From positions 1 to 64,000 of the forward strand of contig NZ_SNZE01000006.1 of assembly GCF_004363775.1 (NCBI RefSeq): 64,000 bases of DNA, in the 5' to 3' direction. How positions within the stretch are numbered: position 1 is the stretch's first letter; every line of letters starts with the position of its first letter. Position numbers and translations under genes: made by a program. Below are positions 2,979 through 37,511 of this stretch, piece after piece. The notes beneath the pieces are model-generated. The model saw only the letters and a program-made list of their open reading frames with translations, searched no databases and had not been told where the DNA came from. The stretch comes from Hydromonas duriensis. Its GTDB lineage: Bacteria; Pseudomonadota; Gammaproteobacteria; Burkholderiales; Burkholderiaceae.

Positions 2979-4451
2979 TTACGATGCGCCTAAGCTCTTT
3001 AAAACACTATTAACAGCCATGTTGATAAGGCCTGCAGGCAACATGCCTAAAACCAACAAAGCCAAAACATTTATGCTCAAAACCACATGATGAACAGGTG
3101 AAAACGCAATGGCTTGCTCATGTTCAGGTTTATCAAAATACATCAACTTAACAACGCGCAAGTAGTAAAACGCACCGATGAGAGAGAACATAACTGCCAA
3201 TACGGATAAAAATACGTGCCCCGACTGCATTAAACCTTTAAGCACCACAAACTTAGCGAAGAACCCCGCCAACGGTGGAATACCCGCCAAGGAGAACATG
3301 ATAATCAGCACAAGAAAGGCCAACCACGGATTGCGTTTATTCAAACCTTTCAAATCATCCAGTTGGTCTGCTTCAAAACCAACGCGACTCATTGCTAAAA
3401 TCACACCGAAACTTGCCAATGTGCTAATGGCATAAATAATCACATAATAAAACGCTGAGCCCACGCCGACAAAACCAGCCAAAGCATCCGCGCCAGCACG
3501 CCCTGCTAAAAATCCAAGTAAAACAAAGCCCATGTGCGAAATGCCCGAGTACGCAAGCATACGTTTAAAGTTCTTTTGGCGAATCGCCGTCAAGTTACCC
3601 AAGGCCAAAGAAACCACCGCCATTGCAGCGAACATGCCATTCCAGTCCGCTGCACGTACTGACAAACCTTCAACCAAAATGCGCACCACCATCACAAAAG
3701 CCGCAATTTTAGGCGCAGCCGAAACCATCAGCGTAACAGGTGTAGGCGAGCCTTGATAAACGTCAGGCACCCACATGTGAAACGGCACAACACCCAATTT
3801 AAAGGCAATACCCGCCACTAAAAACACCAAACCAAACACCACAACTTGAGGGTACTGCACACCCGCTTGCATCACATTGGCTATTTCAATGATGTTCAAT
3901 TTACCGCCTGTTGCGCCGTAAATCATTGACATTCCGAATAAAATAAAACCAGATGCAATTGCCCCCAAGATGAAATATTTCATTGCCGCTTCAATTGAGC
4001 GCACATGGTCACGACGCAAAGCCACCATTGCATACAATGAAAGTGCTTGCAACTCTAACCCCATATACATGGCGATCAAGTTGTGTGAAGAAATCATCAC
4101 CATTTGACCCACCAGCGCAAATAAAGACAGGCTGTAGTACTCACCGTGCAAAAACCCACGGTCAGAGGCATAACGTTGACCATACACGAAAGTGACGGCC
4201 ACACATATGTATGAGAACATTTTGGCTAAATTCGCCAAGGGGTCAGAAACAAACATGTCGTTAAACGTGTGTACATTCACGCCAGCATGCCACATGGTCG
4301 AAGTTAAATAGCCCGCACCAGCCAAGCCCAAGAGACTCATCACGTGAATGATGGAGCGTTGAGTATCTTTCGCGCGCAGTTCAAGCAATAAAACCACTGA
4401 AGCAACTAACACCAAAAGCACTTCAGGATAGGCAATAAAAAAGTTTTGCAT
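2979..4451 (-). CDS. nuoN: NADH-quinone oxidoreductase subunit N
   Basis: A 490-residue antiporter-like membrane subunit of complex I with about 14 membrane helices. The core motifs are present, including LGLELQALSLYAMVAL (about residues 130-145, with the conserved Glu), the lysine-bearing helix KLGVVPFHMWVPDVYQGSP, and QKNFKRMLAYSGISHMGF. It pumps protons as part of the membrane arm. Length is normal. It is the last nuo gene and abuts DUF2818. Confidence 0.97.
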   Translation of the reverse strand: MQNFFIAYPEVLLVLVASVVLLLELRAKDTQRSIIHVMSLLGLAGAGYLTSTMWHAGVNVHTFNDMFVSDPLANLAKMFSYICVAVTFVYGQRYASDRGFLHGEYYSLSLFALVGQMVMISSHNLIAMYMGLELQALSLYAMVALRRDHVRSIEAAMKYFILGAIASGFILFGMSMIYGATGGKLNIIEIANVMQAGVQYPQVVVFGLVFLVAGIAFKLGVVPFHMWVPDVYQGSPTPVTLMVSAAPKIAAFVMVVRILVEGLSVRAADWNGMFAAMAVVSLALGNLTAIRQKNFKRMLAYSGISHMGFVLLGFLAGRAGADALAGFVGVGSAFYYVIIYAISTLASFGVILAMSRVGFEADQLDDLKGLNKRNPWLAFLVLIIMFSLAGIPPLAGFFAKFVVLKGLMQSGHVFLSVLAVMFSLIGAFYYLRVVKLMYFDKPEHEQAIAFSPVHHVVLSINVLALLVLGMLPAGLINMAVNSVLKSLGAS

Positions 4452-4534: not shown

Positions 4535-6037
4535 TTATTTCAATTTGCTATGAGTGACGTGTTCAAGCAGTTGGTTAACCGACACATCCATTGCGTTTGT
4601 GAAAGGCATCGGATACAAACCCATCGCCAATACGGTGATCGCCAACAAAGCCAAAATCAATAACTCTCTCGCGTTTGCATCCATCAAGTCGGCCACATTC
4701 TGATTCGCCACCGCACCAAACACAACTCGTTTAAACATCCATAACGAATAGGCCGCACCGACAATCAAGGTGGTTGCCGCAATGGCTGCAATCCAAAAAT
4801 TAAATTTGACCGCACCTAAAATCACCAAAAATTCGCCGACGAAACCGCTGGTTGCGGGCAAACCTGCATTCGCCATGGTGAAAAGCATGAAAAATGCGGC
4901 GAATTTAGGCATTGTGTTGACAACCCCGCCGTAGGCGGAAATATCTCGGCTATGCACACGGTCATACAACACACCGATACAGAAGAACATTGCAGCAGAA
5001 ATAAAGCCGTGCGAAATCATTTGCAAAATCGCACCTTGCATCGCCACACTGTAACCCATACCGTTAACATCAAACATGAAAAAGCCTAAGGTCACAAACC
5101 CCATGTGCGCAATAGATGAGTAAGCTACCAGTTTTTTCATATCAGTTTGGACCAAGGCGACTAAACCAATATAAGCGACCGCAACCAATGAAATTGTAAC
5201 CACGAAAGGCGCAAAAGCATGTGATGCATCAGGTGCAATCGGTAAAGAGAAACGCAAAAACCCATACGCGCCCAGCTTCAACATAATCGCGGCCAACACC
5301 ATAGAACCACCTGTTGGCGCTTCCACGTGCGCATCAGGCAACCATGTGTGGACAGGCCACATCGGAACTTTGACCGCAAAAGCCATAAAGAACGCAATGA
5401 ATAATAATTTTTGAGCACTTAAACTCAAAGGCAAGGCGTGCCACGCTGCGATGTCAAACGTACCCGATTGCAAATACAAGTACACGACAGCAATCAATGT
5501 CAATAATGAACCAAGCAAGGTGTATAAGAAGAACTTAAATGCGGCATAAACACGATTGGGACCACCCCAAACACCAACAATCACGTACATTGGAATCAAG
5601 GTCGCTTCAAAAAACACATAAAACAACAAACCGTCGGTCACACCAAAAACGCCCACCATCAAACCAGACAAAATCAAGAATGCGGCAAAGTATTGCGGTA
5701 CTTTTTCAGTGATGACTTCCCAGCCCGCCAACAACACCAATACAGTGATAAAAGCAGTCAATGGGACAAACCACATCGAAATACCATCCACACCCAATGC
5801 ATAGCTTGAGCCTAAAGCAGGCAACCACTCATGCTTTTCAACAAACTGCATAGCCGCTGTTGAGCCATCAAAGCCCATCATGATGGGTACGGTGACCAAA
5901 AAACCAAGAATGGCACCGACAAGCGCCACTTTACGCGCCAAACTGTCTTGACCATTGCGCCCGAGCAACAAGACTAACACGCCAAATACAATCGGAACCC
6001 AAATCGCTAAACTTAACCAAGGCATCATCAGCACCAT
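4535..6037 (-). CDS. nuoM: NADH-quinone oxidoreductase subunit M
   Basis: A 500-residue membrane-arm antiporter-like subunit of complex I. The key helices are visible: FYVFFEATLIPMYVIVGVWG (about residues 138-157, proton-channel Glu), the AFAVKVPMWPVHTWLPDAH segment near residue 228, and MKKLVAYSSIAHMGFV. The ATG at 6037 gives MVLMMPWLSLAIW. It is preceded by a 136-base spacer containing hairpins. Confidence 0.97.
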   Translation of the reverse strand: MVLMMPWLSLAIWVPIVFGVLVLLLGRNGQDSLARKVALVGAILGFLVTVPIMMGFDGSTAAMQFVEKHEWLPALGSSYALGVDGISMWFVPLTAFITVLVLLAGWEVITEKVPQYFAAFLILSGLMVGVFGVTDGLLFYVFFEATLIPMYVIVGVWGGPNRVYAAFKFFLYTLLGSLLTLIAVVYLYLQSGTFDIAAWHALPLSLSAQKLLFIAFFMAFAVKVPMWPVHTWLPDAHVEAPTGGSMVLAAIMLKLGAYGFLRFSLPIAPDASHAFAPFVVTISLVAVAYIGLVALVQTDMKKLVAYSSIAHMGFVTLGFFMFDVNGMGYSVAMQGAILQMISHGFISAAMFFCIGVLYDRVHSRDISAYGGVVNTMPKFAAFFMLFTMANAGLPATSGFVGEFLVILGAVKFNFWIAAIAATTLIVGAAYSLWMFKRVVFGAVANQNVADLMDANARELLILALLAITVLAMGLYPMPFTNAMDVSVNQLLEHVTHSKLK

Positions 6038-8648: not shown

Positions 8649-9325
8649 TATTTTTTCTCCTGAGCAGATGCTGCAGCTGAGTTCTCTACAACTGGAGCAG
8701 GCGGATTGGTTTGATGCGCACTCACATCGGCTTGAACCGCCACCATAGTCAAACGTTCACTTGCTTTTACTTGTGCTTGTGCCGTTGCATTCTGTGTTTT
8801 AGCATCCTTACGGTGACGCAATGTGATAATAACCGCTGCAATCAACGCCACAAGTAAAATCAACGCCGCTATTTCAAAAGGAAACGCATACTCGGTGTAC
8901 ATGACTTGACCAATCTTGCGTGTATTTGAACCGTCGACGACCAAATTTTTCCAAACATCAGCGTTTGGTTTTACGTTGAAATGATGATAAATAACCGCAC
9001 CCATTTGCAACACAACAACCCCACCCAGAGCCAAAGCCCAAGGCAGAAGTGATTTAAAACCTTTTCGAGGCTCACCCACATTTAGGTTAATCATCATGAC
9101 CACGAACAAGAACAAAATCATGACCGCGCCAACATAGACCAATATCAACAAGATGCCAAGAAACTCAGCTTGCAACATAATCCAAATGCCCGCAGCCGAA
9201 AAGAATGAAAGCATCAAAAAAAGTGCGGCATGTACAGGGTTAGGCACCGTCACCACCAATAAAGCGGAGAGCAAAAGCATACCTGCAAAAATAAAATATA
9301 AAAGGCTTTGAACGTCCATTGTCAT
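8648..9325 (-). CDS. nuoJ: NADH-quinone oxidoreductase subunit J
   Basis: A 225-residue five-helix subunit of complex I. The conserved third helix ([20 protein letters not shown], about residues 57-76) is intact. After the last helix near residue 165, a polar tail of about 55 residues rich in Ala, Gln, Thr and Lys extends into the cytoplasm; tails of this kind occur in Burkholderiales NuoJ and are probably disordered. It overlaps nuoK. Confidence 0.96.
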
Positions 9326-24395: not shown

Positions 24396-25436
24396 CTAAA
24401 CTATCTCTAAAAAATCTCTAGAAAGCATCATTGAAGCAACCGAAGACTCAATGCACTCCCAGTTTTTGAGTTCAGATGCAATACAATATCCTTCGTTTTT
24501 AAATTTTTTAAGCTGACTCTTCAAGTCTTTCAATGAACTGGTATTTATAACCATTCTCAAAACAGTTCCACTAAAGCCTACTAAATCAAAGTTAATTTTT
24601 TGCCCTAACTTCAACAGCAGTCCAGACTTACCGCTTGCAATAAAGAACTCTCCACCCGTTCTTGCTATTCGGCTCGTCATATAAAGTCCAAACCCTGAGT
24701 TTTGCCATACATCATTATGATTTTTCTTAACACCCTTGTACATCTTTCCTGACACACCTGGCAACAACGATAATTGCAAAGCATCTCGATCACACGACAT
24801 ACTTAAATAAGGGTTATTTGAAAGAGAGTTTTTAATACCAACTCCCAAATCTAAAACAACTATTTCCACTTTATTTTTTGTAGGCCAAAATTGCGCACAA
24901 AACTCTAGAACAGATGAATTTGAGTGTTCAACAACATTTCTCATCACCTCTCTTAATGAGTAAGTAAGCGTGTCAAAAAGTTCGCCGCTATCTGCTCTTA
25001 TCAACATCCTCGCCAACGAACTTGACTTTGCCTCTATCAGGTTTCCAATTGCCTCACCTTTCTCAAAGGCCTCTTTTTTTATATCTTCAATATTTATTAT
25101 TGTTAAGGGCAAATAACTCGAGCTACCACCCGCTTGCCCAGGTGACTTACCAAAATCCAAACCAAACGCTTTAAAAAAACCCATATGTGCAAGGTAACTC
25201 TTCTCTTTATAATTCTGCGCTTTAAAACGAACACCTCGCTTAGATTGACATTTATAAACCTCGGAGATTTGACTAGAGACATATGCCATACCAAAAGGTT
25301 CAATATGCTCTAAAAATCTAAAATCAAAAACAATTTCGTCTACTTCATCAGAGATATCCCAAAAAGTATTACAAAAATCTATAGCATTTTGTAAGCTCAA
25401 GCTTCTTGGAACTGTCATCATCTTACAAAGAGCCAT
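24396..25436 (-). CDS. STAS-like plus GHKL ATPase protein (accessory, function unknown)
   Basis: A 346-residue protein. Residues about 10-75 look like a STAS domain, with EIVFDFRFLEHIEPFGMAYV as a core strand-helix. Residues about 160-300 form a histidine-kinase-type ATPase: N box REVMRNVVEHSNSS, G1 box VLDLGVGIKNS and G2 box NSGFGLYMTSRIARTGG. There is no dimerisation/His domain or receiver, so it is not an ordinary kinase; anti-sigma-like or effector-linked ATPases have this plan. Its codons are clearly A/T-richer than those of thiL and nusB on either side. A strong site, GGGGGAGG, precedes the ATG. It sits in the nusB-thiL junction in the operon direction. A defence or signalling role is inference. 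Confidence 0.7.
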   Translation of the reverse strand: MALCKMMTVPRSLSLQNAIDFCNTFWDISDEVDEIVFDFRFLEHIEPFGMAYVSSQISEVYKCQSKRGVRFKAQNYKEKSYLAHMGFFKAFGLDFGKSPGQAGGSSSYLPLTIINIEDIKKEAFEKGEAIGNLIEAKSSSLARMLIRADSGELFDTLTYSLREVMRNVVEHSNSSVLEFCAQFWPTKNKVEIVVLDLGVGIKNSLSNNPYLSMSCDRDALQLSLLPGVSGKMYKGVKKNHNDVWQNSGFGLYMTSRIARTGGEFFIASGKSGLLLKLGQKINFDLVGFSGTVLRMVINTSSLKDLKSQLKKFKNEGYCIASELKNWECIESSVASMMLSRDFLEIV

Positions 25437-27764: not shown

Positions 27765-27989
27765 TCAAGGCTGCTGCTCTGGATAATTTGAATCCAAACT
27801 GCTTACAAGCGCCATCAATGTCGTGCGCACCTGCTCCTCTGTGCCGCCCATGAGCACCGCATCATCAAGCATATCCTGCGCAAGCTGATGCAGCTCCTCA
27901 AGGTTTTCGTTCAGCACTTTGATTTTTTCAACACAGGCCAGCGGTGTGCCATCGGGTTTATGCCAAATAGGCGGTTTGAATGCACTCAT
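27765..27989 (-). CDS. Small conserved-type protein of unknown function
   Basis: A 74-residue acidic, mostly helical protein beginning MSAFKPPIWHKPDGTPLACV, followed by a KIKVLNENLEELHQLAQDML helix. I recall similar small proteins upstream of ribBA or near housekeeping genes in Burkholderiales, annotated only as hypothetical. No catalytic motif is visible. It has its own ATG and lies about 95 bases before ribBA on the same strand, divergent from iscR. Confidence 0.7.
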   Translation of the reverse strand: MSAFKPPIWHKPDGTPLACVEKIKVLNENLEELHQLAQDMLDDAVLMGGTEEQVRTTLMALVSSLDSNYPEQQP

Positions 27990-28113
27990 GAGCGTTTAGA
28001 CAACCATTCCATTAAAAGTGGGGATTTTAACACGCCCCGCCACTTTTAGCCCTCCCACCGCATCCTGTAATATAATGCCATACCCTTATGCGTGGTAAGG
28101 CTTTCTGTGGGTA

Positions 28114-28148
28114 ATACCCGAGTAATTTAATCGGGTTTATGTTACAAT
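28114..28148 (+). promoter_or_regulatory. IscR type-1-like operator and iscR promoter
   Basis: ACCCGA (28116-28121) and TCGGGT (28131-28136) flank AT-rich GTAATTTAA, matching the pattern of the operators bound by [2Fe-2S] IscR. A -10-like TACAAT follows at 28143-28148, with the dyad covering the -35 region. Bound IscR would therefore block RNA polymerase, giving feedback control of the isc operon. Confidence 0.75.
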
Positions 28149-28250
28149 GGCTGCACATTCGCTAAGATGTCATCACCAGATTATTTATATTTCACATTGA
28201 GCTTAATTGCCCTATAAAATCAACGACATATTTAAGAATTGGATCACACT

Positions 28251-28703
28251 ATGCGACTTACTACGAAAGGACGATTTGCGGTGACTGCACTATTAGACGT
28301 GACCTTGCGCTCGAGCGACGGTCCTGTCAACTTAGCGGCGGTTTCTGAGCGTCAACAAATATCTTTGTCTTACCTTGAGCAATTATTCGGCAAATTACGC
28401 CGCAACAAATTGGTAGACAGCGTTCGAGGCCCTGGTGGCGGCTACGTGCTGGCTCGCGCCCCAGAAACCATTTCTGTTGCTCATATCATTGTAGCGGTAG
28501 ATGAACCGTTGGACACGCGTCAATGCGAAGGTCGGGCTGACTGTCAAAACGGCCATCAATGCATGACGCACAATTTATGGAACAATTTAAACAGCAAAAT
28601 GTTTGAGTACCTTGATTCAGTCAGCTTACACGACTTGGTGCAAGACCATTTGGCGCACAATGCAGCACTCAAGTCGTCAGAGCATGTCATTCACATGCAA
28701 TAA
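28251..28703 (+). CDS. iscR: Iron-sulfur cluster regulator IscR
   Basis: A 150-residue Rrf2-family repressor that senses [2Fe-2S] cluster supply. It starts [11 protein letters not shown] and has a winged helix-turn-helix in the first 65 residues. The cluster ligands fall at Cys92, Cys98 and Cys104 with His107, the same spacing as in Escherichia coli IscR. The ATG at 28251 is preferred over an in-frame TTG 12 bases upstream because family members start here. Confidence 0.97.
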
Positions 28704-28741
28704 ATGTAATAGCAATTTTTAGACATTCGAAAGACTACCCA

Positions 28742-29950
28742 ATGAACATGCCCATCTACATGGATTACTCCGCCACCACGCCAATAGACCCTCGCGTTGC
28801 GGACAAAATGATTCCATACATCACCGAACACTTTGGCAACCCAGCCTCACGCAGCCACCCTTACGGCTGGGCGGCGGAAGAAGCTGTAGAAACGGCTCGT
28901 TCTCACGTCGCCGCGCTGGTCAATGCAGACCCTCGCGAAATCGTGTTCACTTCGGGCGCGACCGAATCGAACAACTTGGCTTTAAAAGGCGTGGCGCATT
29001 TTTACAAAGATAAAGGCAAGCACATCATCACGGTCAAAACCGAGCACAAAGCCGTCCTCGACACCTGCCGCGAGCTGGAACGCGAAGGATTCGAAGTGAC
29101 CTACCTTGATGTGCGGGACAGCGGCTTGTTGGACTTAGACACGTTCAAAGCCGCCATTCGCCCCGACACCATTTTGGCTTCGGTCATGCACGTCAACAAT
29201 GAAATTGGTGTGATTCAAGACATCGCCACGCTGGGTGAGATTTGCCGCGAAAAAGGCGTGATTTTTCATGTGGACGCCGCGCAATCAACGGGGAAAGTGA
29301 CCATTGACTTGAACGCCTTAAAAGTTGACTTAATGAGTTTCTCAGCGCACAAAACGTATGGCCCCAAAGGCATCGGTGCGCTCTACGTGCGCCGCAAACC
29401 GCGCATCCGCCTCGAAGCACAAATGCACGGCGGCGGCCACGAACGCGGCATGCGTTCAGGCACATTGGCGACTCATCAAATTGTCGGCATGGGCGAGGCT
29501 TTTCGCATCGCCAAAGAAGACATGGACAGCGACAACAAGCGCATCGGCGCACTGCGCGACCGCCTGTGGACGGGCTTTCAAAACATGGAAGAAGTGCATT
29601 TAAATGGCGACATGACCCGCCGCGTGCCACACAACTTAAATGTCAGCTTTAACTTCGTTGAAGGCGAATCATTGATGATGGCGATTAAGGATGTTGCCGT
29701 ATCCAGCGGTTCAGCGTGCACCTCCGCCTCGTTAGAACCCTCTTACGTTTTACGTGCTTTGGGGCGTTCCGATGAGCTGGCGCATTCATCGATTCGCTTT
29801 ACCGTTGGTCGTTTCACCACCGAAGCAGAAATTGACACCGTCATTGCCCTCATGCAATCGAAAATCGCCAAACTGCGTGAACTCTCACCCTTATGGGAAA
29901 TGTACAAAGAAGGCATCGATTTAAACAGTGTGCAATGGGCAGCGCATTAA
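28742..29950 (+). CDS. iscS: Cysteine desulfurase
   Basis: A 402-residue PLP enzyme that delivers sulfur from cysteine to IscU and other acceptors. It shows [13 protein letters not shown] at the start, [20 protein letters not shown] (PLP Lys near residue 206) and the mobile loop [20 protein letters not shown] (active Cys near residue 326). It is of IscS type by length and motif. Confidence 0.98.
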
Positions 29951-29966
29951 ATAAGAAGGACATGAT

Positions 29967-30260
29967 ATGAAAAAGTTGATTTTATGGGCTGTACTGCTGG
30001 GCTTTAGCGTACTCACTGCGATTGCCGTTGCTTCTCATGGCGTCATCGGTATTTTTCAATACCAACTGGCGAACGCTGCGGGCTTACAGGTGCTGGTTGA
30101 CTTAATTATCGCTTCGGCTTTTTTCTTGGTTTGGATGTGGCACGACACGCAAAAAAGAGGGGTTAGCCCTTGGCCTTGGCTGATATTAACCCTAGTAGCT
30201 GGCTCATTTGGACCATTAATTTATTTCATTGTGCGTGAATACAAGGCGCAAAACAACTAG
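29967..30260 (+). CDS. DUF2834-like small membrane protein
   Basis: A 97-residue protein with three hydrophobic segments (about residues 3-24, 42-58 and 68-88) and the pattern VWMWHDTQKRG then PWPWLILTL, typical of DUF2834 proteins. AAGGA lies 7 bases before its ATG. It sits between iscS and iscU, where these genes are usually adjacent. A role in iron-sulfur assembly is not known for this family. Confidence 0.75.
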   Translation: MKKLILWAVLLGFSVLTAIAVASHGVIGIFQYQLANAAGLQVLVDLIIASAFFLVWMWHDTQKRGVSPWPWLILTLVAGSFGPLIYFIVREYKAQNN

Positions 30261-30292
30261 CTCGAACAACTGGCTCAAAACGGAGAAACATC

Positions 30293-30676
30293 ATGGCTTA
30301 CTCAGACAAACTAATGGATCACTACGAAAATCCGCGCAATGTCGGCGCGTTTGACAAGGGCGACGACAGCGTGGGCACGGGCATGGTCGGCGCACCCGCC
30401 TGCGGTGACGTGATGAAGCTGCAAATCAAGGTCAACGAACAAGGCATCATCGAAGACGCTAAATTCAAAACCTACGGTTGCGGTTCAGCCATCGCCTCAT
30501 CGTCACTGGTGACCGAATGGGTCAAAGGCAAAACCGTAGACCAAGCCTTAGACATCAAAAACTCACAAATTGCTGAAGAATTGGCTTTACCTCCCGTCAA
30601 AATTCACTGCTCAATTCTCGCGGAAGATGCGATTAAAGCCGCGGTGGCGGATTACAAAGCCAAACACTCTAGCTAG
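30293..30676 (+). CDS. iscU: Iron-sulfur cluster scaffold protein
   Basis: The 127-residue scaffold on which clusters are built. The three ligand Cys are present in [13 protein letters not shown] (Cys37), [13 protein letters not shown] (Cys63) and [16 protein letters not shown] (Cys106), with the LPPVK motif recognised by HscA. It is preceded by a GGAG ribosome site. Confidence 0.98.
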
Positions 30677-30692
30677 ACAAGGAGAACACATC

Positions 30693-31016
30693 ATGGCAGT
30701 CTCAATGACCGCGGCGGCAGCGCAACACGTACAAAGCTTCTTGACCAAACGCGGCAAAGGCATTGGTCTTCGCCTTGGTGTGCGCACCACAGGCTGTTCG
30801 GGCATGGCGTACAAATTGGAATACGCCGACAACCTCGAACCTGAAGACAATGTATTTGAAGCGCATGGCGTGAAATTGCTGATTGACCCAAAAAGTTTAG
30901 CGTATTTGGACGGCACAGAACTGGACTACACCCGCGAAGGTTTGAACGAAGGTTTTAAATTCAACAACCCCAACGTCAAAGACGAATGCGGTTGCGGCGA
31001 GTCATTCCACGTATAA
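30693..31016 (+). CDS. iscA: Iron-sulfur cluster assembly protein IscA
   Basis: A 107-residue A-type carrier protein. The conserved Cys are in [13 protein letters not shown] (about residue 35) and the C-terminal DECGCGESF (about residues 99 and 101). AAGGAG precedes the ATG at 30693. It follows iscU by 16 bases. Confidence 0.97.
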
Positions 31017-31057
31017 ACCGATCAACCCCGCTAAACAATCCATGCACACCCCTATTT

Positions 31058-31516
31058 ATGCTCAACTTTCTGAATATCCGCATTTACCCTTTGTTGCTCA
31101 TGGCGATTTTGCTATTGGCGCAATTGATATTCGGTCGTTTTATTAAATTCTCACTCGCCTTGGCGAATGCCTCAGGCATGACCGCCTTGGCGCTGTTGCT
31201 CATCGGGGTCGTGTTGATTATGTGGGCAGGTTTACAATTTCGCATTCACAACACCAGCGTCAACCCCAGCAAAACCGCAACCACCCTCGTCACCACATGG
31301 CTCTTTCGCCTCTCGCGCAACCCCATGTACTTGGGCATGTTGTTGATTTTAATGGTTCAACCCTTACTTGCCCTGCGGCCGCACCTCTTGATATTCACCG
31401 CTGTATTTTTCATCATCATGAACTACCTTGTGATTCCACGCGAAGAGCGCATGATGCTCAACACCTTTGGCGAACACTACCAAAACTACTGCGCCCAAAC
31501 CCGTCGCTGGATTTAA
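31058..31516 (+). CDS. Isoprenylcysteine carboxyl methyltransferase-like membrane protein
   Basis: A 152-residue protein with about four membrane helices and the signature LFRLSRNPMYLGMLLILM (about residues 85-102) followed by PREERMMLNTFGEHYQNYC, typical of ICMT/PEMT-type methyltransferases. The substrate is unknown. The ATG at 31058 is the most plausible start, although no clear ribosome site is visible; the open frame extends upstream over iscA in another frame. It lies between iscA and hscB, which are normally adjacent, with 3 bases before hscB. Confidence 0.8.
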   Translation: MLNFLNIRIYPLLLMAILLLAQLIFGRFIKFSLALANASGMTALALLLIGVVLIMWAGLQFRIHNTSVNPSKTATTLVTTWLFRLSRNPMYLGMLLILMVQPLLALRPHLLIFTAVFFIIMNYLVIPREERMMLNTFGEHYQNYCAQTRRWI

Positions 31517-31519
31517 CTC

Positions 31520-31996
31520 ATGAAACAAAACTACTTCGAGCTATTTCAACTGCCCGTACAATTTGACCTCAACCTCGCCGACCTCACAGAACGCCACCGC
31601 ACCATTATCAACAAAGTTCATCCCGACCGCTTCGCCGCCGCCAGCGCGATGGAACAACGCCTTGCGTTGCAGTGGTCGACATTCGCCAACGAAGCCTACC
31701 AAGCCCTGCGCGACCCCATCGCTCGCGCCACTTACCTGCTGCAACTGCACGCGCCCGAACTCACGGGCGAAGCAATGCGAGTACAATTGCCACAATATTT
31801 TTTAATGCAACAAATGGAATGGCGCGAAGCCCTTGAAGACGGCAAAGTTGAACAAGTGCGCGCAGAAGTCGATGCCATCCATGCGCAGAACTTAGAATAC
31901 TTGGCGCAAGCATGCGCCGCTCAAAACTGGTCTCAAGTGCAAACGGTCATTGCGCAGTGCCAGTTTGTTGAGAATTTTTTGAAGCAGTTGCCATAA
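31520..31996 (+). CDS. hscB: Fe-S cluster co-chaperone HscB
   Basis: A 158-residue J-domain co-chaperone that presents IscU to HscA. It begins MKQNYFELFQLPVQFD and has the HPD motif in INKVHPDRFAAAS (about residues 30-42). The C-terminal three-helix IscU-binding domain is present (MEWREALEDGK). HscA normally follows directly, but here the AbiH gene lies between. Confidence 0.96.
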   Translation: MKQNYFELFQLPVQFDLNLADLTERHRTIINKVHPDRFAAASAMEQRLALQWSTFANEAYQALRDPIARATYLLQLHAPELTGEAMRVQLPQYFLMQQMEWREALEDGKVEQVRAEVDAIHAQNLEYLAQACAAQNWSQVQTVIAQCQFVENFLKQLP

Positions 31997-32019
31997 ACAG
32001 GTAAATAAAGAGAAAAACG

Positions 32020-33078
32020 ATGGAAAGAATTTTAATCATTGGAAATGGCTTTGACTTAGATTTGGGTTTAAAGACTTCGTATCAAGACTTTCTAAGGTCA
32101 GAGTCAAAGTCTTTTGAAAACCTGATAGCAACACAAAATGTGTTGGCTCGTTATTTAAATTATAAAAATGAAATTCAAAACTGGGTAGACGTTGAGCATG
32201 AGTTAAAAAATTATGCTAATGATTTATACAAAAAACCCGATGCACTTCAAAACTTTTTAAAGCGAGAAAAATATATAACTGAAAATATAACTTCGGGGGC
32301 GACGTACTATCGTATTAACGATGCCATTTTTCCAGAAATCGATTCTGTTTATAACCTTTATCTCTTATTTAAAACCAACCTAAAAAAAGAGTTTGTAGCA
32401 TTAAAAGAGGCTTTATGTACGCATTTAACTGAAGCACAAAGACAACAAAATGACAGTAAATCAAATGCTTATAGAATATTAAAATACGGGACTTTATTTA
32501 ATGACAATGGCTCATATCACGACTTTAACTTTCCAGACGAAATAGAACAAAAAAAATTTGACTCAATCTATTCGTTTAACTATACCAATAGCCTTAAAGA
32601 TTACACAGGTCGAACAGATGGAGGACACGCTGTAGAACCATTTTTTATTCACGGCTCTTTAAATCAAAACAACATCGTTTTTGGCGTTGAGGATGATTCA
32701 GTACCTGAGGAGTGTAATTTTTTACTTAAATCAGACCATGCGGCATTTGGGTTTGCACCAGATTTATTGCTCAACATTTTTTCAAATGAACCCAATGAGT
32801 TTCATTTTTTTGGTTGCTCGCTAGGTGACACCGACAACATACATTTTGAAAACTTTTTTTCTGCGTTAACCAAAAGATGGGATGCCACAAACATATTAAT
32901 ACCCAAACATCATCTATTCTTTTACGTCTACGACAAATCAGGCTATCAAGCCATAAGAAATCGAATTTTGCGTTTAACCAAAGGTCAACTTGCCGCCTTT
33001 AAAAAGAACAACAAAGTGATTTTTTACGACATAAAAAGTAACGTAATGATAGACCAAAACTACTTGAACCAACTTTGA
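32020..33078 (+). CDS. AbiH-family abortive infection protein
   Basis: A 352-residue protein. It opens MERILIIGNGFDLDLGLKTS, the nucleotide-binding-like N-terminus of the AbiH family. It also has FDSIYSFNYTNSL (about residues 184-196), FFIHGSLNQNNIVFGV (about residues 208-223) and FHFFGCSLGDTDN, all hallmarks of the family. AbiH was described as a phage abortive infection protein in lactococci; its mechanism is not settled. The gene is markedly A/T-rich compared with hscB and hscA, which it separates, in the same orientation with a 23-base and a 21-base gap. It must be read from the isc transcript unless it has an unseen promoter. Lateral transfer is inferred. Confidence 0.88.
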   Translation: MERILIIGNGFDLDLGLKTSYQDFLRSESKSFENLIATQNVLARYLNYKNEIQNWVDVEHELKNYANDLYKKPDALQNFLKREKYITENITSGATYYRINDAIFPEIDSVYNLYLLFKTNLKKEFVALKEALCTHLTEAQRQQNDSKSNAYRILKYGTLFNDNGSYHDFNFPDEIEQKKFDSIYSFNYTNSLKDYTGRTDGGHAVEPFFIHGSLNQNNIVFGVEDDSVPEECNFLLKSDHAAFGFAPDLLLNIFSNEPNEFHFFGCSLGDTDNIHFENFFSALTKRWDATNILIPKHHLFFYVYDKSGYQAIRNRILRLTKGQLAAFKKNNKVIFYDIKSNVMIDQNYLNQL

Positions 33079-33099
33079 ACAGATTGATGCAAAGCAAAT

Positions 33100-34989
33100 A
33101 TGGCACTCCTCCAAATCTCCGAACCCGGTGAATCCACCCTCCCCCACCAACATCGTTTAGCGGTAGGCATTGACTTGGGCACCACCAACTCTCTCGTGGC
33201 GACCGTTCGCCATGGTTTTCCTACTGTTTTAAGCGACGAAGACGCGCGCGCGCTCGTGCCGTCGGTCGTGCATTATGCGCCCGATGCGACGACGGTGGGC
33301 TACGCGGCGAAAGCCTTACAGACCAACGACCCGAGAAACACCATCGCTTCGGTGAAACGCTTGATGGGGCGCGGCTTTGTCGATGCCCGTGCCTTGCCTG
33401 ATGCGGGTTATTGTTTGGTCGATACACCAGGCATGGTCAGCGTAAAAACCGCACAGGGAGTCAAAAGCCCTGTTGAGGTGTCTGCCGATATTTTGAAATT
33501 TTTGCACGCGCGAGCCACTGCAAGCCTTGGCGATGAGCTGGTCGGTGCGGTCATCACTGTACCTGCGTATTTTGATGAGGCGCAACGCCAAGCGACTAAG
33601 GATGCGGCGCAACTCGCGGGGCTGAATGTGTTGCGTTTATTGAATGAACCAACGGCGGCCGCCATTGCGTACGGTTTGGATAATGCCGACAACATCGCGA
33701 AAGAAGGGGTGTTTGCGGTGTATGATTTAGGCGGCGGTACGTTTGATGTGTCGATTTTAAAATTATCCAAAGGTGTGTTTGAAGTCTTGTCTACGCACGG
33801 CGATACGGCTTTGGGCGGTGATGATTTTGACCACCGCGTGTATTGTTGGATTTTGGAGCAGGCGAATTTAATCGGTTTGCATGCCAATTTATCCACACAA
33901 GACGTGCGCTTATTACAGAGCAAAAGCCGTTGGGCGAAAGAGCATTTGACCACCAACGGCGTGGTGAGCATTCGCGCCACGTTGTCTGATGAACATCAGG
34001 TTAATTTAATGCTCAGTCAAGCGCAGTTCTTTGAGATGACCAAAACTTTGGTTGATAAAACCATTGGCGTATTGGATGAGGCTTTGGCTCAGGCTCATGT
34101 CAGCAGCAGCGATTTGCAGGGTGTCGTGATGGTGGGCGGTGCGACGCGGATGGTGCACGTTCAGCGTGCTGTGGCGGCGCATGTGGCTTGCCCCGTATTG
34201 AATGACCTTGACCCTGACCAAGTGGTCGCGCTCGGCGCAGCGATGCAAGCCAATTTATTAGCGGGCAACCGTTCGGATGATGACTGGTTGTTGCTGGATG
34301 TGATTCCGCTGTCGCTTGGTGTCGAAACCATGGGCGGCTTGACGGAAAAAATCATCCCGCGCAACAGCACGTTACCGTTGGCGCGTGCGCAAGAGTTCAC
34401 AACGTTCAAAGATGGACAAACCGCCATGGCACTTCATGTCGTGCAAGGCGAACGCGAGCTGGTGAGCGAGTGTCGCTCGCTTGCGCGTTTTGAATTGCGC
34501 GGCATTCCGCCGATGGTCGCGGGCGCGGCGCGCGTGCGTGTGACGTATCAAGTCGATGCCGATGGCTTGCTCACGGTTTCGGCGCGTGAAATCAATTCAG
34601 GCGTATCCGCTGAAATCACGGTGAAGCCCTCTTATGGATTGTCGGACAACGACATTGCCAAGATGCTCACGGATGGCAACAGCCACGCCAAAGACGATAT
34701 GCAGGCTCGCGCATGGCGTGAAGTGCTTGTCGATGCACAGCGCATTGTGCTGGCGGTCAACAGCGCCATCAGCGAAGACGGCGAATTGCTTACTGAAGAT
34801 GAACGTAGCGACTTGCTCAAGCACATCAAAATCATTGATGATTTAATTCAAGCGAATGATGTGAGCCAAGCCGATGCCTTGCGCGCCGCCAGCGACGGGC
34901 TTGCCCATGCTTCAGAAGAGTTTGCCGCTCGTCGCATGGACAAAGCCATTGCGCACGCCTTGGCAGGTCAGTCGATTGACACGTTATAG
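33100..34989 (+). CDS. hscA: Fe-S assembly Hsp70 chaperone HscA
   Basis: A 629-residue Hsp70 specialised for IscU. The ATPase domain shows [13 protein letters not shown] (about residues 23-35), the [19 protein letters not shown] segment, [13 protein letters not shown] and [14 protein letters not shown] (about residues 207-220). A substrate-binding domain and a C-terminal lid follow. Length and order identify HscA rather than DnaK. It is separated from hscB by abiH. Confidence 0.96.
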
Positions 34990-35056
34990 GCTACAAACAC
35001 GCCTTTAAAACATTCACCTACATTTTTTGAAACTTACATTTTTTTGAAAAACAACC

Positions 35057-35398
35057 ATGCCAATTATTAAAGTACGCCCTCATGAGACCATTTGCCCCAA
35101 TGGCGCTGAATTTGAAGCCCAGCAAGGCATGTCTATTTGCGACAATTTGCTGCAACATCATATTGACATTGAACACGCGTGTGAAAAAGTCGCGGCCTGC
35201 ACCACCTGCCACGTCATTGTGCGAAAAGGCTATCAATCGCTCAATGAGATTGGCGACCAAGAAGAAGATTTGCTCGACATGGCTTGGGGGCTAACCGCTC
35301 AATCTCGCTTGTCGTGCCAAGCCATCGTTGCAGACGAGGACTTAGAAATTGAAATGCCGAAGTACACGAAAAACCACGCCAGCGAAGGTTCGCATTAA
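35057..35398 (+). CDS. fdx: ISC-type [2Fe-2S] ferredoxin
   Basis: A 113-residue adrenodoxin-type ferredoxin supplying electrons to cluster assembly. The four ligands are in HACEKVAACTTCHVIV (Cys42, Cys48 and Cys51) and SRLSCQAIV (Cys87). It closes the isc operon. An iscX gene, which often follows fdx, is absent, and a terminator comes next. Confidence 0.96.
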   Translation: MPIIKVRPHETICPNGAEFEAQQGMSICDNLLQHHIDIEHACEKVAACTTCHVIVRKGYQSLNEIGDQEEDLLDMAWGLTAQSRLSCQAIVADEDLEIEMPKYTKNHASEGSH

Positions 35399-35424
35399 AC
35401 TTTTGGTTTTCGTGTGCAACACAC

Positions 35425-35458
35425 AACCAACTTTAAAACGAGCTGAAAAGTTGGTTTT
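35425..35458 (+). terminator. Probable terminator of the isc operon
   Basis: AACCAACTTT (35425-35434) and AAAGTTGGTT (35447-35456) form a 10-base stem with a 12-base loop, ending in a short T-run TTTT at 35455-35458. It lies 27 bases after the fdx stop and overlaps the -35 region of the dapD promoter. Confidence 0.65.
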
Positions 35459-35484
35459 CACATTCCATTGAACAACTATATAAT
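35457..35484 (+). promoter_or_regulatory. Promoter of dapD
   Basis: TTCACA (35457-35462) and a perfect TATAAT (35479-35484) are 16 bases apart. Transcription should start near 35491, leaving a leader of about 30 bases with AAGGAC before the dapD ATG. Confidence 0.7.
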
Positions 35485-35520
35485 GTTGCGATTATTTTAA
35501 ACACTGACACAAGGACTAGA

Positions 35521-36351
35521 ATGAGCATGAGCCAACTCGAACAATTCATTAACGACGCATGGGAACAACGCGCTGAATTCACACCAAAAAATGCACCTGC
35601 AGACGTGCGTGAAGCCGTCGACAGCGTCATTGCACAACTCGACTCGGGTGCCATTCGCGTGGCCGAAAAAATCAATGGCGACTGGCATGTCAACCAATGG
35701 ATTAAAAAAGCCGTGCTATTGTCATTCCGTCTTGAAGACAACGCCGTGATGGGCGCGGGTGGTTTTACTCAGTTCTATGACAAAGTCCCGAGCAAATTCG
35801 CCAACTACACCGCAGAAGACTTTGCCAAAGGCGGCTTTCGCGTCGTACCGCCCGCCGTTGCACGTCGCGGCTCATACATTGCTAAAAACACGGTATTGAT
35901 GCCGTCTTATGTCAATATTGGCGCGTATGTGGATGAAGGCACCATGGTCGACACTTGGGCAACGGTTGGCTCGTGTGCTCAAATCGGTAAAAACGTGCAT
36001 TTATCTGGCGGTGTCGGCATCGGCGGCGTACTCGAACCCATGCAAGCCAACCCGACCATCATCGGCGACAACTGCTTTATTGGCGCGCGCTCTGAAGTGG
36101 TTGAAGGCGTTATTGTTGAAGACAACTGCGTGATTTCAATGGGCGTGTACATCGGCCAATCGACCAAAATTTTCGACCGCGAAACAGGTGAAGTCACTTA
36201 CGGTCGCATCCCTGCTGGCTCGGTCGTCGTTTCAGGCAACTTGCCCTCAAAAGATGGCTCATACAGCTTGTACTGCGCCGTCATCGTCAAAAAAGTTGAC
36301 GCTCAAACCCGTTCAAAAACCAGCATCAACGAACTGTTGCGCGGCGTGTAA
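35521..36351 (+). CDS. dapD: Tetrahydrodipicolinate N-succinyltransferase
   Basis: A 276-residue left-handed beta-helix acyltransferase in the lysine/diaminopimelate pathway, using succinyl-CoA. Hexapeptide repeats run from about residue 110 to 240, including [20 protein letters not shown] and [19 protein letters not shown]. The length matches proteobacterial DapD. Confidence 0.97.
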
Positions 36352-36414: not shown

Positions 36415-36512
36415 GGCGGCATGCAACGTGCCGCAAACCAAGTGCTGTCAATCCACATTCAAACACGATAAAGCATTGGGCGACTCAAGGCATTGCCTAG
36501 ATAGGAGATTTG

Positions 36513-37511
36513 ATGGTGTACCCCATATCATGCATTTTCTTGAAACTACTTGTTTTGTTTATATCTGTGACAGTTTTTTGTGTATTGTCTATTGCTACGC
36601 TGCATTTTTTACCTAATTTTTTAAAAAAATTTATGAGTCATAAGAACATGAAAGCAAAAGTTAAAAACATAATTTGTGACTTAGTAAAATTAATCGCGAT
36701 ATTATTGGTTGGCTTGATTATCTTATGGCTAGTTTATAAGTATGGTTGGCTCAATAAGTCACGGGCTTTTGAGTTCCCCTCAAGTTCAGCAGAACGCGGT
36801 CAGTTTGGCGATTTTTTTGGTGGTGTATTTAATCCAATTATTGGCTTGTTCTCAGCCTATTTCGTATATCGAGCTTTTAAAGCGCAGATTGACGCTAATG
36901 AAAAAATCAGAGAACAGTTTCAAATTGAGCATTTAGAAGCTGGCATTGCAAGTTTGTATGGGTTTCTTGAAAAGAATATTGAAAGTTTTAGCTTTAAATC
37001 TTTACCACCTTCTTATCTAAAGACAAAAGAAGAAATGGATGAAATTTTATCCAGTCCAAAATACCGATATTCAAGTGCTAGGAATGAAGACAAAATCGAA
37101 GCTTACAACTGTGACACACTAGAAGATATTGAATCTAGCGAAGGCGGAGCTGCAATACATAAACTAATTTGTCAAATTATCTGCGAACCTCATGCATCAG
37201 AATCAGAACTTCAAGATGAAGATTCTGTTCAACAATTAATCAACATCCTAGAAACATTTTTGGAGTTACTTATTCGCATTAAAGATTGTGAAAATAAAAT
37301 GTCTTCAAAAAACACCGAGCACAAACATGCATATCGCTTACTTTTAGAAAGTTTATTCAAGTATCAAATTGCCAAAAATCACTCTGATTATGACCTTTGC
37401 AGTCATCAACATGGTCTGCCTGAAAAATTGAGCAATACATTTTCAAGTATTCAAGACGAACTTAGGATTGCAAGAAGTAATAAGATCGTGCCCAATGTTG
37501 AAAATACTTAA
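36513..37511 (+). CDS. putAbiC-like phage abortive infection membrane protein
   Basis: A 332-residue protein with two N-terminal membrane segments (about residues 7-30 and 51-75). The motif GQFGDFFGGVFNPIIGLFSA (about residues 91-110) then leads into a third hydrophobic segment and a long helical cytoplasmic part. This motif block is the signature of the putative AbiC phage-infection family (PF16872-type). AGGAG lies 6 bases before the ATG at 36513. The gene is A/T-rich compared with dapD. It stands between dapD and a small zinc protein in the same direction. The defence role is by family name only. Confidence 0.75.
   Translation: MVYPISCIFLKLLVLFISVTVFCVLSIATLHFLPNFLKKFMSHKNMKAKVKNIICDLVKLIAILLVGLIILWLVYKYGWLNKSRAFEFPSSSAERGQFGDFFGGVFNPIIGLFSAYFVYRAFKAQIDANEKIREQFQIEHLEAGIASLYGFLEKNIESFSFKSLPPSYLKTKEEMDEILSSPKYRYSSARNEDKIEAYNCDTLEDIESSEGGAAIHKLICQIICEPHASESELQDEDSVQQLINILETFLELLIRIKDCENKMSSKNTEHKHAYRLLLESLFKYQIAKNHSDYDLCSHQHGLPEKLSNTFSSIQDELRIARSNKIVPNVENT

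Follow-up and report, generated by a model that had tools for sequence, protein, structure and literature searches.

An abiH gene inside an isc operon: the hscB-hscA junction of Formosimonas-type bacteria as an apparent slot for accessory genes

The isc operons of E. coli and P. aeruginosa, as described in the available part of PMC3899308, have the gene order of the cluster analyzed here and carry a type-1-like box before iscR; the IscR type-1 consensus and the repression model used below were also taken from that part. AbiH of Lactococcus lactis (Pfam PF14253; PADLOC PDLC02345) belongs to a single-gene family, as does the gene reported here. According to the available text of PMC12322248, an AbiH system inhibits one phage genus in Streptococcus thermophilus and its action is listed as unknown, and a relationship of AbiH to Sir2 was predicted earlier in the portion of PMC3506569 that was at hand. 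Core-gene hotspots were described to have rapid turnover; for those that lack mobile elements, recombination at the core genes on either side was proposed, and the same partial text states that new genes seldom land inside operons (PMC5635113). In the available parts of that paper and of a report on core defence hotspots of P. aeruginosa (PMC10250203), the hotspots have fixed core flanks and variable cargo, as was observed here, often without a mobile element and, in the P. aeruginosa case, with low GC.

The window, which means the whole 64-kb stretch of DNA that was analyzed, came from a freshwater-type bacterium akin to Formosimonas in the Burkholderiaceae. It contained a complete isc cluster on the forward strand in the order iscR-iscS-iscU-iscA-hscB-hscA-fdx. 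The products of iscS (28742..29950, TIGR02006), iscU (30293..30676, TIGR01999), iscA (30690..31016, TIGR02011), hscB (31520..31996, TIGR00714), hscA (33100..34989, TIGR01991) and fdx (35057..35398, TIGR02007) each exceeded the cut-off of the TIGR model, while IscR (28251..28703) reached 201 bits with TIGR02010, just short of its cut-off of 207.6. Unlike the isc operons of E. coli and P. aeruginosa, this cluster had extra genes, all on the same strand, at iscS/iscU, iscA/hscB and hscB/hscA. The first one (29967..30260) encoded a DUF2834 membrane protein (PF11196, 1.5e-06), for which tblastn against the isc regions of 12 relatives found nothing. The second one (31055..31516) encoded a membrane protein similar to PEMT/isoprenylcysteine methyltransferase (ICMT) (PF04191, 2.6e-11), and it was also found in two of the same 12 regions (G001 and G026).

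The third extra gene was abiH. The earlier note had described a 352-codon AbiH gene with about 20 bases on each side, and the position proved exact: in the ORF list of the window, an ORF of 352 aa lies at 32020..33078 on the forward strand, 23 bases behind the end of hscB at 31996 and 21 bases before the start of hscA at 33100. It was the sole ORF of 60 aa or more in the gap. The protein matched the Pfam AbiH family PF14253 with an E-value of 1.6e-24 and 87.8 bits (cut-off 30.9) over residues 4-285, and the PADLOC AbiH model with 4.1e-07 over residues 3-230; a search against NCBIfam at 0.001 matched zero families. An AbiH with 72% identity was found in the same hscB-hscA junction of Formosimonas limnophila KCTC 32501 (G001), on contig NZ_BMZG01000001.

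To see how unusual the insert is, HscA matches were paired with matches to the C-terminal domain of HscB (HscB_C) in a sample of 150 genomes of the order, and the spacing was counted from the end of the HscB domain match. There were 103 HscA places, and 96 of them could be paired with an HscB match that lay on their strand and no more than 5 kb upstream; the remaining 7 were left out. When the window genome was excluded, the median spacing of the other 95 pairs was 61 bp, and 93 of these pairs lay within 488 bp, in agreement with the earlier statement that hscB and hscA are nearly always adjacent. The best 30 hscA loci (L002-L031) included 25 from outside the genus, with gaps of -1 to 458 bp. 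The two pairs above 488 bp belonged to G126 and G043. The gap of G126 (L060) contained a 434-aa protein, a 67-aa ORF and one further ORF, which we take to be HicB-like from reading rather than from a profile search. In G043 (L061), a transporter, presumably LysE-like by the same kind of reading, lay between hscB and hscA, and hscA was split into two overlapping frames, which inflated the distance.

Within the genus, six genomes were searched and five gave both hscB and hscA; G004, which is 85% complete, gave neither. All five had an insert of 1013 to 1811 bp at the junction, and the sister genus genome G026 had a gap of 50 bp. Inserts in 5/5 genus pairs against 2/95 others gave a Fisher p of 3e-7, where the five cases are related and not independent. 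The five inserts carried four unrelated cargoes, all in the direction of the operon, with AbiH in the window genome (G000) and G001; searches of G002-G005 did not find abiH. In the junction of G002, a PD-(D/E)XK-like protein of 155 aa (PF11645 with E 0.0017, under the cut-off) was accompanied by palindromic repeats and by a GIY-YIG gene with an out-of-frame start. GIY-YIG and repeats were also present in G003 and G005, together with proteins of 209 aa and 246 aa, respectively, both membrane-type by eye and both without a Pfam match over the cut-off or a PADLOC match. Resemblance to defence genes was clear for AbiH, weak for the nuclease and absent for the others. Because relatives carry different foreign-looking genes at this position, the hscB-hscA junction looks like an accessory-gene slot of a swap-in type inside the isc operon.

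The pair of close relatives G002 and G005 was the most direct case. Most of the operon, the GIY-YIG gene and the spacer after it aligned between them at 87-92%. The alignment was interrupted in the iscS-iscU gap, across roughly 100 bases that directly follow hscB and throughout the cargo, and it restarted 12 bases into hscA. This pattern of alignment around the cargo but not in it indicated that cargo is exchanged at the junction between the two. Since the GIY-YIG and palindrome DNA is common to three of the five inserts, we do not count five separate insertion events and take the number of cargo changes to be four or more. In the genus tree, support was weak (24-54) except for G002+G005, and the sister genus genome G026 was placed inside the genus. 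Palindromes with the core ATTCCCGCCTNNGCGGGAAT clustered with the GIY-YIG gene (L036 4140-4700, L037 6690-7810 and L038 7950-8460); counted genome-wide by the strict pattern, 2 of 7 copies in G002, 5 of 19 in G003 and 2 of 8 in G005 lay inside the hscB-hscA junction. None of these ATTCCCGCCTNNGCGGGAAT-type palindromes was found anywhere in the 64-kb window, and a mobile element at the window junction was rejected, as there were neither palindromes like those of the relatives nor, at 60 aa or more, any ORF besides abiH. The PD-(D/E)XK-like cargo had one match at 60%, on a plasmid of Acidisoma, and no relatives of the 209-aa and 246-aa proteins were found in viral contigs or plasmids.

We then compared the two abiH genes with their surroundings. 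Between G000 and G001, abiH showed 83% nucleotide identity with a dS of 0.41, whereas the seven isc genes compared all had a dS of at least 0.89 (iscA the lowest with 0.89; hscA 1.9; hscB, iscR and fdx saturated); these values came from a simple counting method on one genome pair, and the low GC narrows synonymous choice. Because abiH occurs in only one genome pair, the divergence test consists of a single comparison. The GC content of abiH was 33%, against 53-55% in hscB and hscA of this genome, and less than 0.1% of windows of abiH size in the 64 kb had GC as low. Therefore abiH, AT-rich and less diverged synonymously than its isc neighbours, has probably spread laterally. At both of its edges the insert had an identity of 0.95 to 0.97, non-coding bases included, and in hscA this dropped to about 0.7. 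Windows of 40 bases inside abiH had values between 0.55 and 0.97 on the two sides of a gap, where the F. limnophila protein lacks about 30 residues of the window AbiH, thus a transfer would not be of very recent date. All five genus genomes had similar first codons in hscA, so the high identity of the downstream edge carries little information and the upstream edge alone is telling. In the first part of hscA, identity at synonymous sites was just modestly raised (0.68 vs 0.50), so that the 5' end of hscA was weakly supported as a recombination anchor and was not retained as one.

The source of abiH was also searched. A match to abiH was obtained in 2 of the 101 genomes searched, the window genome included, and the AbiH family was matched in 4 of 369 sampled genomes of the class, 2 of them above the cut-off. 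Family members were located on plasmids and viral contigs. In the search for a donor, phage records gave no match, one of 72,556 plasmid records matched at 28%, and a search of viral contigs with the single sequence gave none. There were 36 candidate stretches for abiH, and the one named genome among them was F. limnophila. Unlike most relatives retrieved, which lay on plasmids or viral contigs, the window gene was inside a chromosomal isc operon.

We conclude, with a probability of about 0.68, that the hscB-hscA slot of this clade holds a laterally spread abortive-infection gene, abiH, whose product is predicted to have a SIR2 fold and which is probably read from an IscR-controlled promoter. 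The analysis itself gave the position and neighbours of abiH, the diversity of the cargo, a synonymous divergence of abiH below that of its neighbours, the conserved box and -10 element and the modelled fold. The mechanism that we infer includes a lateral route, recombination, co-transcription, control by IscR, NADase activity and protection from phage. In the Formosimonas-type clade, accessory genes would land at this junction time and again, and the AT-rich abiH would occupy it here and in F. limnophila. It would probably be transcribed by read-through from the isc promoter, with AbiH at a basal level that would rise under iron or oxidative stress, and HscA downstream would still be expressed despite the insert. 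On sensing of phage, the SIR2-fold protein would most likely destroy NAD+. On the sequences compared, the isc operon looks like a ride for the cargo and not a designed partner. A defence gene in a core-gene hotspot is of a known kind, and the unusual part is the position inside a conserved operon; unlike the hotspots described before, the slot takes one or a few genes at once. Among the matches listed for a literature search on isc operon, insertion and defense, this arrangement was absent from titles and the openings of abstracts.

A more far-reaching form of this conclusion, which we regard as rather doubtful, is that the junction is a defence slot in a housekeeping operon, where single-gene effectors, in this genome a SIR2-fold NADase, are swapped in and out, owe their promoter and their stress-dependent control to IscR and are shielded from silencing because lost read-through would also cost HscA. 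More generally, a slot in one of the most conserved operons illustrates a way in which defence genes of small size could use an existing promoter and avoid being lost, and gaps between operon genes that are normally adjacent are a simple hunting place for new defence genes.

Evidence on expression came from the region upstream of iscR. An IscR type-1-like box, the palindrome ATACCCGAGTAATTTAATCGGGTTT, was found at 28114..28138 on the forward strand, with its first base 137 bases before the ATG of iscR; it agreed with the E. coli consensus at 22 of 25 positions (3 mismatches), where the available part of PMC3899308 reports identities of 68 and 76%. At 3 or fewer mismatches this was the one IscR-type box in the 64-kb window, and 100 shuffles gave none. 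Boxes with 3-5 mismatches were present 107 to 141 bases ahead of the iscR reference point in all five genus genomes with the cluster, although boxes with 5 mismatches are unspecific (some outgroups had more than one match, and one had three at this level or better). Directly behind the box, at 28140..28148 on the forward strand, was the extended -10 element TGTTACAAT, which we propose as the isc promoter. An extended -10 stood at this place in all five genus genomes, as TGTTACAAT in G000, G001, G002 and G005 and as TGCTAGAAT in G003; it was TGTTAGAAT in G026. The promoter scan left the proposed element at 28140..28148 unflagged. In the translation from the ATG at 28251, IscR retained the four cluster ligands C92, C98, C104 and H107. 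As the box and the extended -10 precede iscR, expression of abiH from the isc promoter by read-through is likely, and hscB, abiH and hscA would be co-transcribed.

The earlier note had gone further and proposed that control by IscR couples a protein of phage abortive infection to iron-sulfur status. The control itself is plausible with this box and -10 element, and if IscR truly drives abiH, immunity would track iron and oxidative stress. A purposeful coupling was not favoured. It would mean that abiH was kept because derepression by IscR under iron-sulfur damage, infection included, raises AbiH. The conserved box and -10 upstream, the shared position of abiH in both species and a dN/dS of 0.36 in abiH, below 1, would agree with such selection, but the three other genus genomes have a similar promoter with unrelated cargo in the slot, and, as noted above, G002-G005 gave no abiH. 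Because the other cargoes are unrelated, purposeful coupling is not favoured over hitch-hiking, and we consider it improbable.

To the same degree improbable is that abiH is a transcriptionally separate tenant that has its own promoter and is merely seated between hscB and hscA. A promoter-like match inside abiH (32450-32477), a terminator-like match (32129-32145) and the similarity of the gene together with its non-coding edges in both species would fit a self-contained unit. Such a unit would, however, have flanks of just 23 and 21 bases, and over 27950-35700 both kinds of sites were at the level of shuffled sequence, with 10 promoter-like matches vs 9.4 expected and 12 terminator-like matches vs 11.2 expected. 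Therefore nothing above chance in the scan isolates abiH, as an internal promoter and terminator, named in the earlier note as a refuting result, would do, and read-through from the isc promoter is the simplest reading.

What AbiH does was approached through its conserved residues and fold. In an alignment of 41 sequences, G8-N9-G10-F11-D12, W55, E59, N187, Y188, G265, S267 and D272 were invariant and H211-G212 nearly so; in a set of 14 sequences, W and E of the WxDxE motif were invariant and D was nearly so. The window protein has every family motif (GNGFD, WxDxE, NYT, HG and GxS...D), and the conserved N and H presumably stand in the order expected of a SIR2 active site. The AlphaFold2 model from the 41-member alignment had a mean pLDDT of 81 and a pTM of 0.82; a single-sequence model was discarded with a pLDDT of 36. 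Foldseek with the model gave nothing at E <= 0.001, the best match being KomBC at 0.042, and the AbiH profile, searched against sequences of solved structures, hit four entries, all weak and seemingly unrelated, with E 0.38 at best. VIA-align, with 997 chains aligned, gave Z of 13.2 to 9.1 for the 50 rows listed, and 49 of these 50 titles named a protein of SIR2 type or a complex that contains such a protein, a tally of entry titles in which the matched chain within a complex is not told apart. The top row (Z 13.2, rmsd 3.7, 235 residues aligned) had a title that names only HerA. SIR2-HerA, ThsA, KomBC, DSR2, SPARSA, AVAST5 and sirtuins were among the titles that we took, partly from our own recognition, to be of SIR2 type.

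AbiH is thus predicted from the model to have a SIR2 fold, like the SIR2-family antiphage NADases SIR2-HerA/Nezha, ThsA, DSR2, KomBC, SPARSA and AVAST5, with Z up to 13.2. Unlike these, the window AbiH had no partner gene in the junction, and its NADase activity is a prediction. Given the SIR2-type structural matches, the earlier prediction of a Sir2 relationship and the inhibition of some phages by an AbiH in S. thermophilus, destruction of NAD+ is its most likely action. A role other than defence, in which a SIR2-like protein was co-opted for housekeeping or iron-sulfur work, would suit a gene that sits in a housekeeping operon, and family membership is no proof of function. Against it, a match in just 2/101 genomes, a synonymous divergence below that of the neighbours, a low GC and family members on plasmids and viral contigs make this role still less probable than the two explanations above.

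An artefact of assembly or binning, to which the 77 contigs of the genome might point and which the earlier note had named as able to overturn the arrangement, is ruled out because F. limnophila KCTC 32501 carries AbiH at the same junction, and the window itself lies inside a 117-kb contig.

A second AT-rich gene in the window, of 346 aa at 24396-25436 on the reverse strand, splits nusB from thiL. Its product had a weak match to HATPase_c_2 (0.0013) and a DrmA-like match in PADLOC (9.9e-09, residues 49-229). The nusB and thiL matches lay 21 to 194 bp apart in G001, G003, G004 and G005, and G026 had 33 bp between them; a nusB match was absent in G002, and the two genes were not neighbours in G006, G027 and G028. 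Since this gene also splits an operon pair, operon insertion may be a habit of the lineage rather than specific to isc, which is an argument against AbiH having been tied to iron-sulfur status for a purpose.

Some further accessory ORFs were observed. Behind dapD, at 36510-37511 on the forward strand of the window, was an AT-rich ORF of 333 aa with N-terminal membrane stretches by eye; PADLOC at 0.1 gave no match to this ORF and no Pfam family passed its cut-off, and we take it to resemble putative Abi membrane proteins. The iscS-iscU junction was variable too: where the window has the DUF2834 gene, a secreted-looking protein was present in G001 (by eye; L035, about 4905-5296) and in G005 (L038, reverse complement, 3843-4226), and the gap was 141 bp in G002 and 123 bp in G003. 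Between hscA and fdx, G002 and G005 both had an ORF of 83 aa (L036 7366-7617; L038, reverse complement, 9004-9255), which we assume to be TfoX C-terminal-like.
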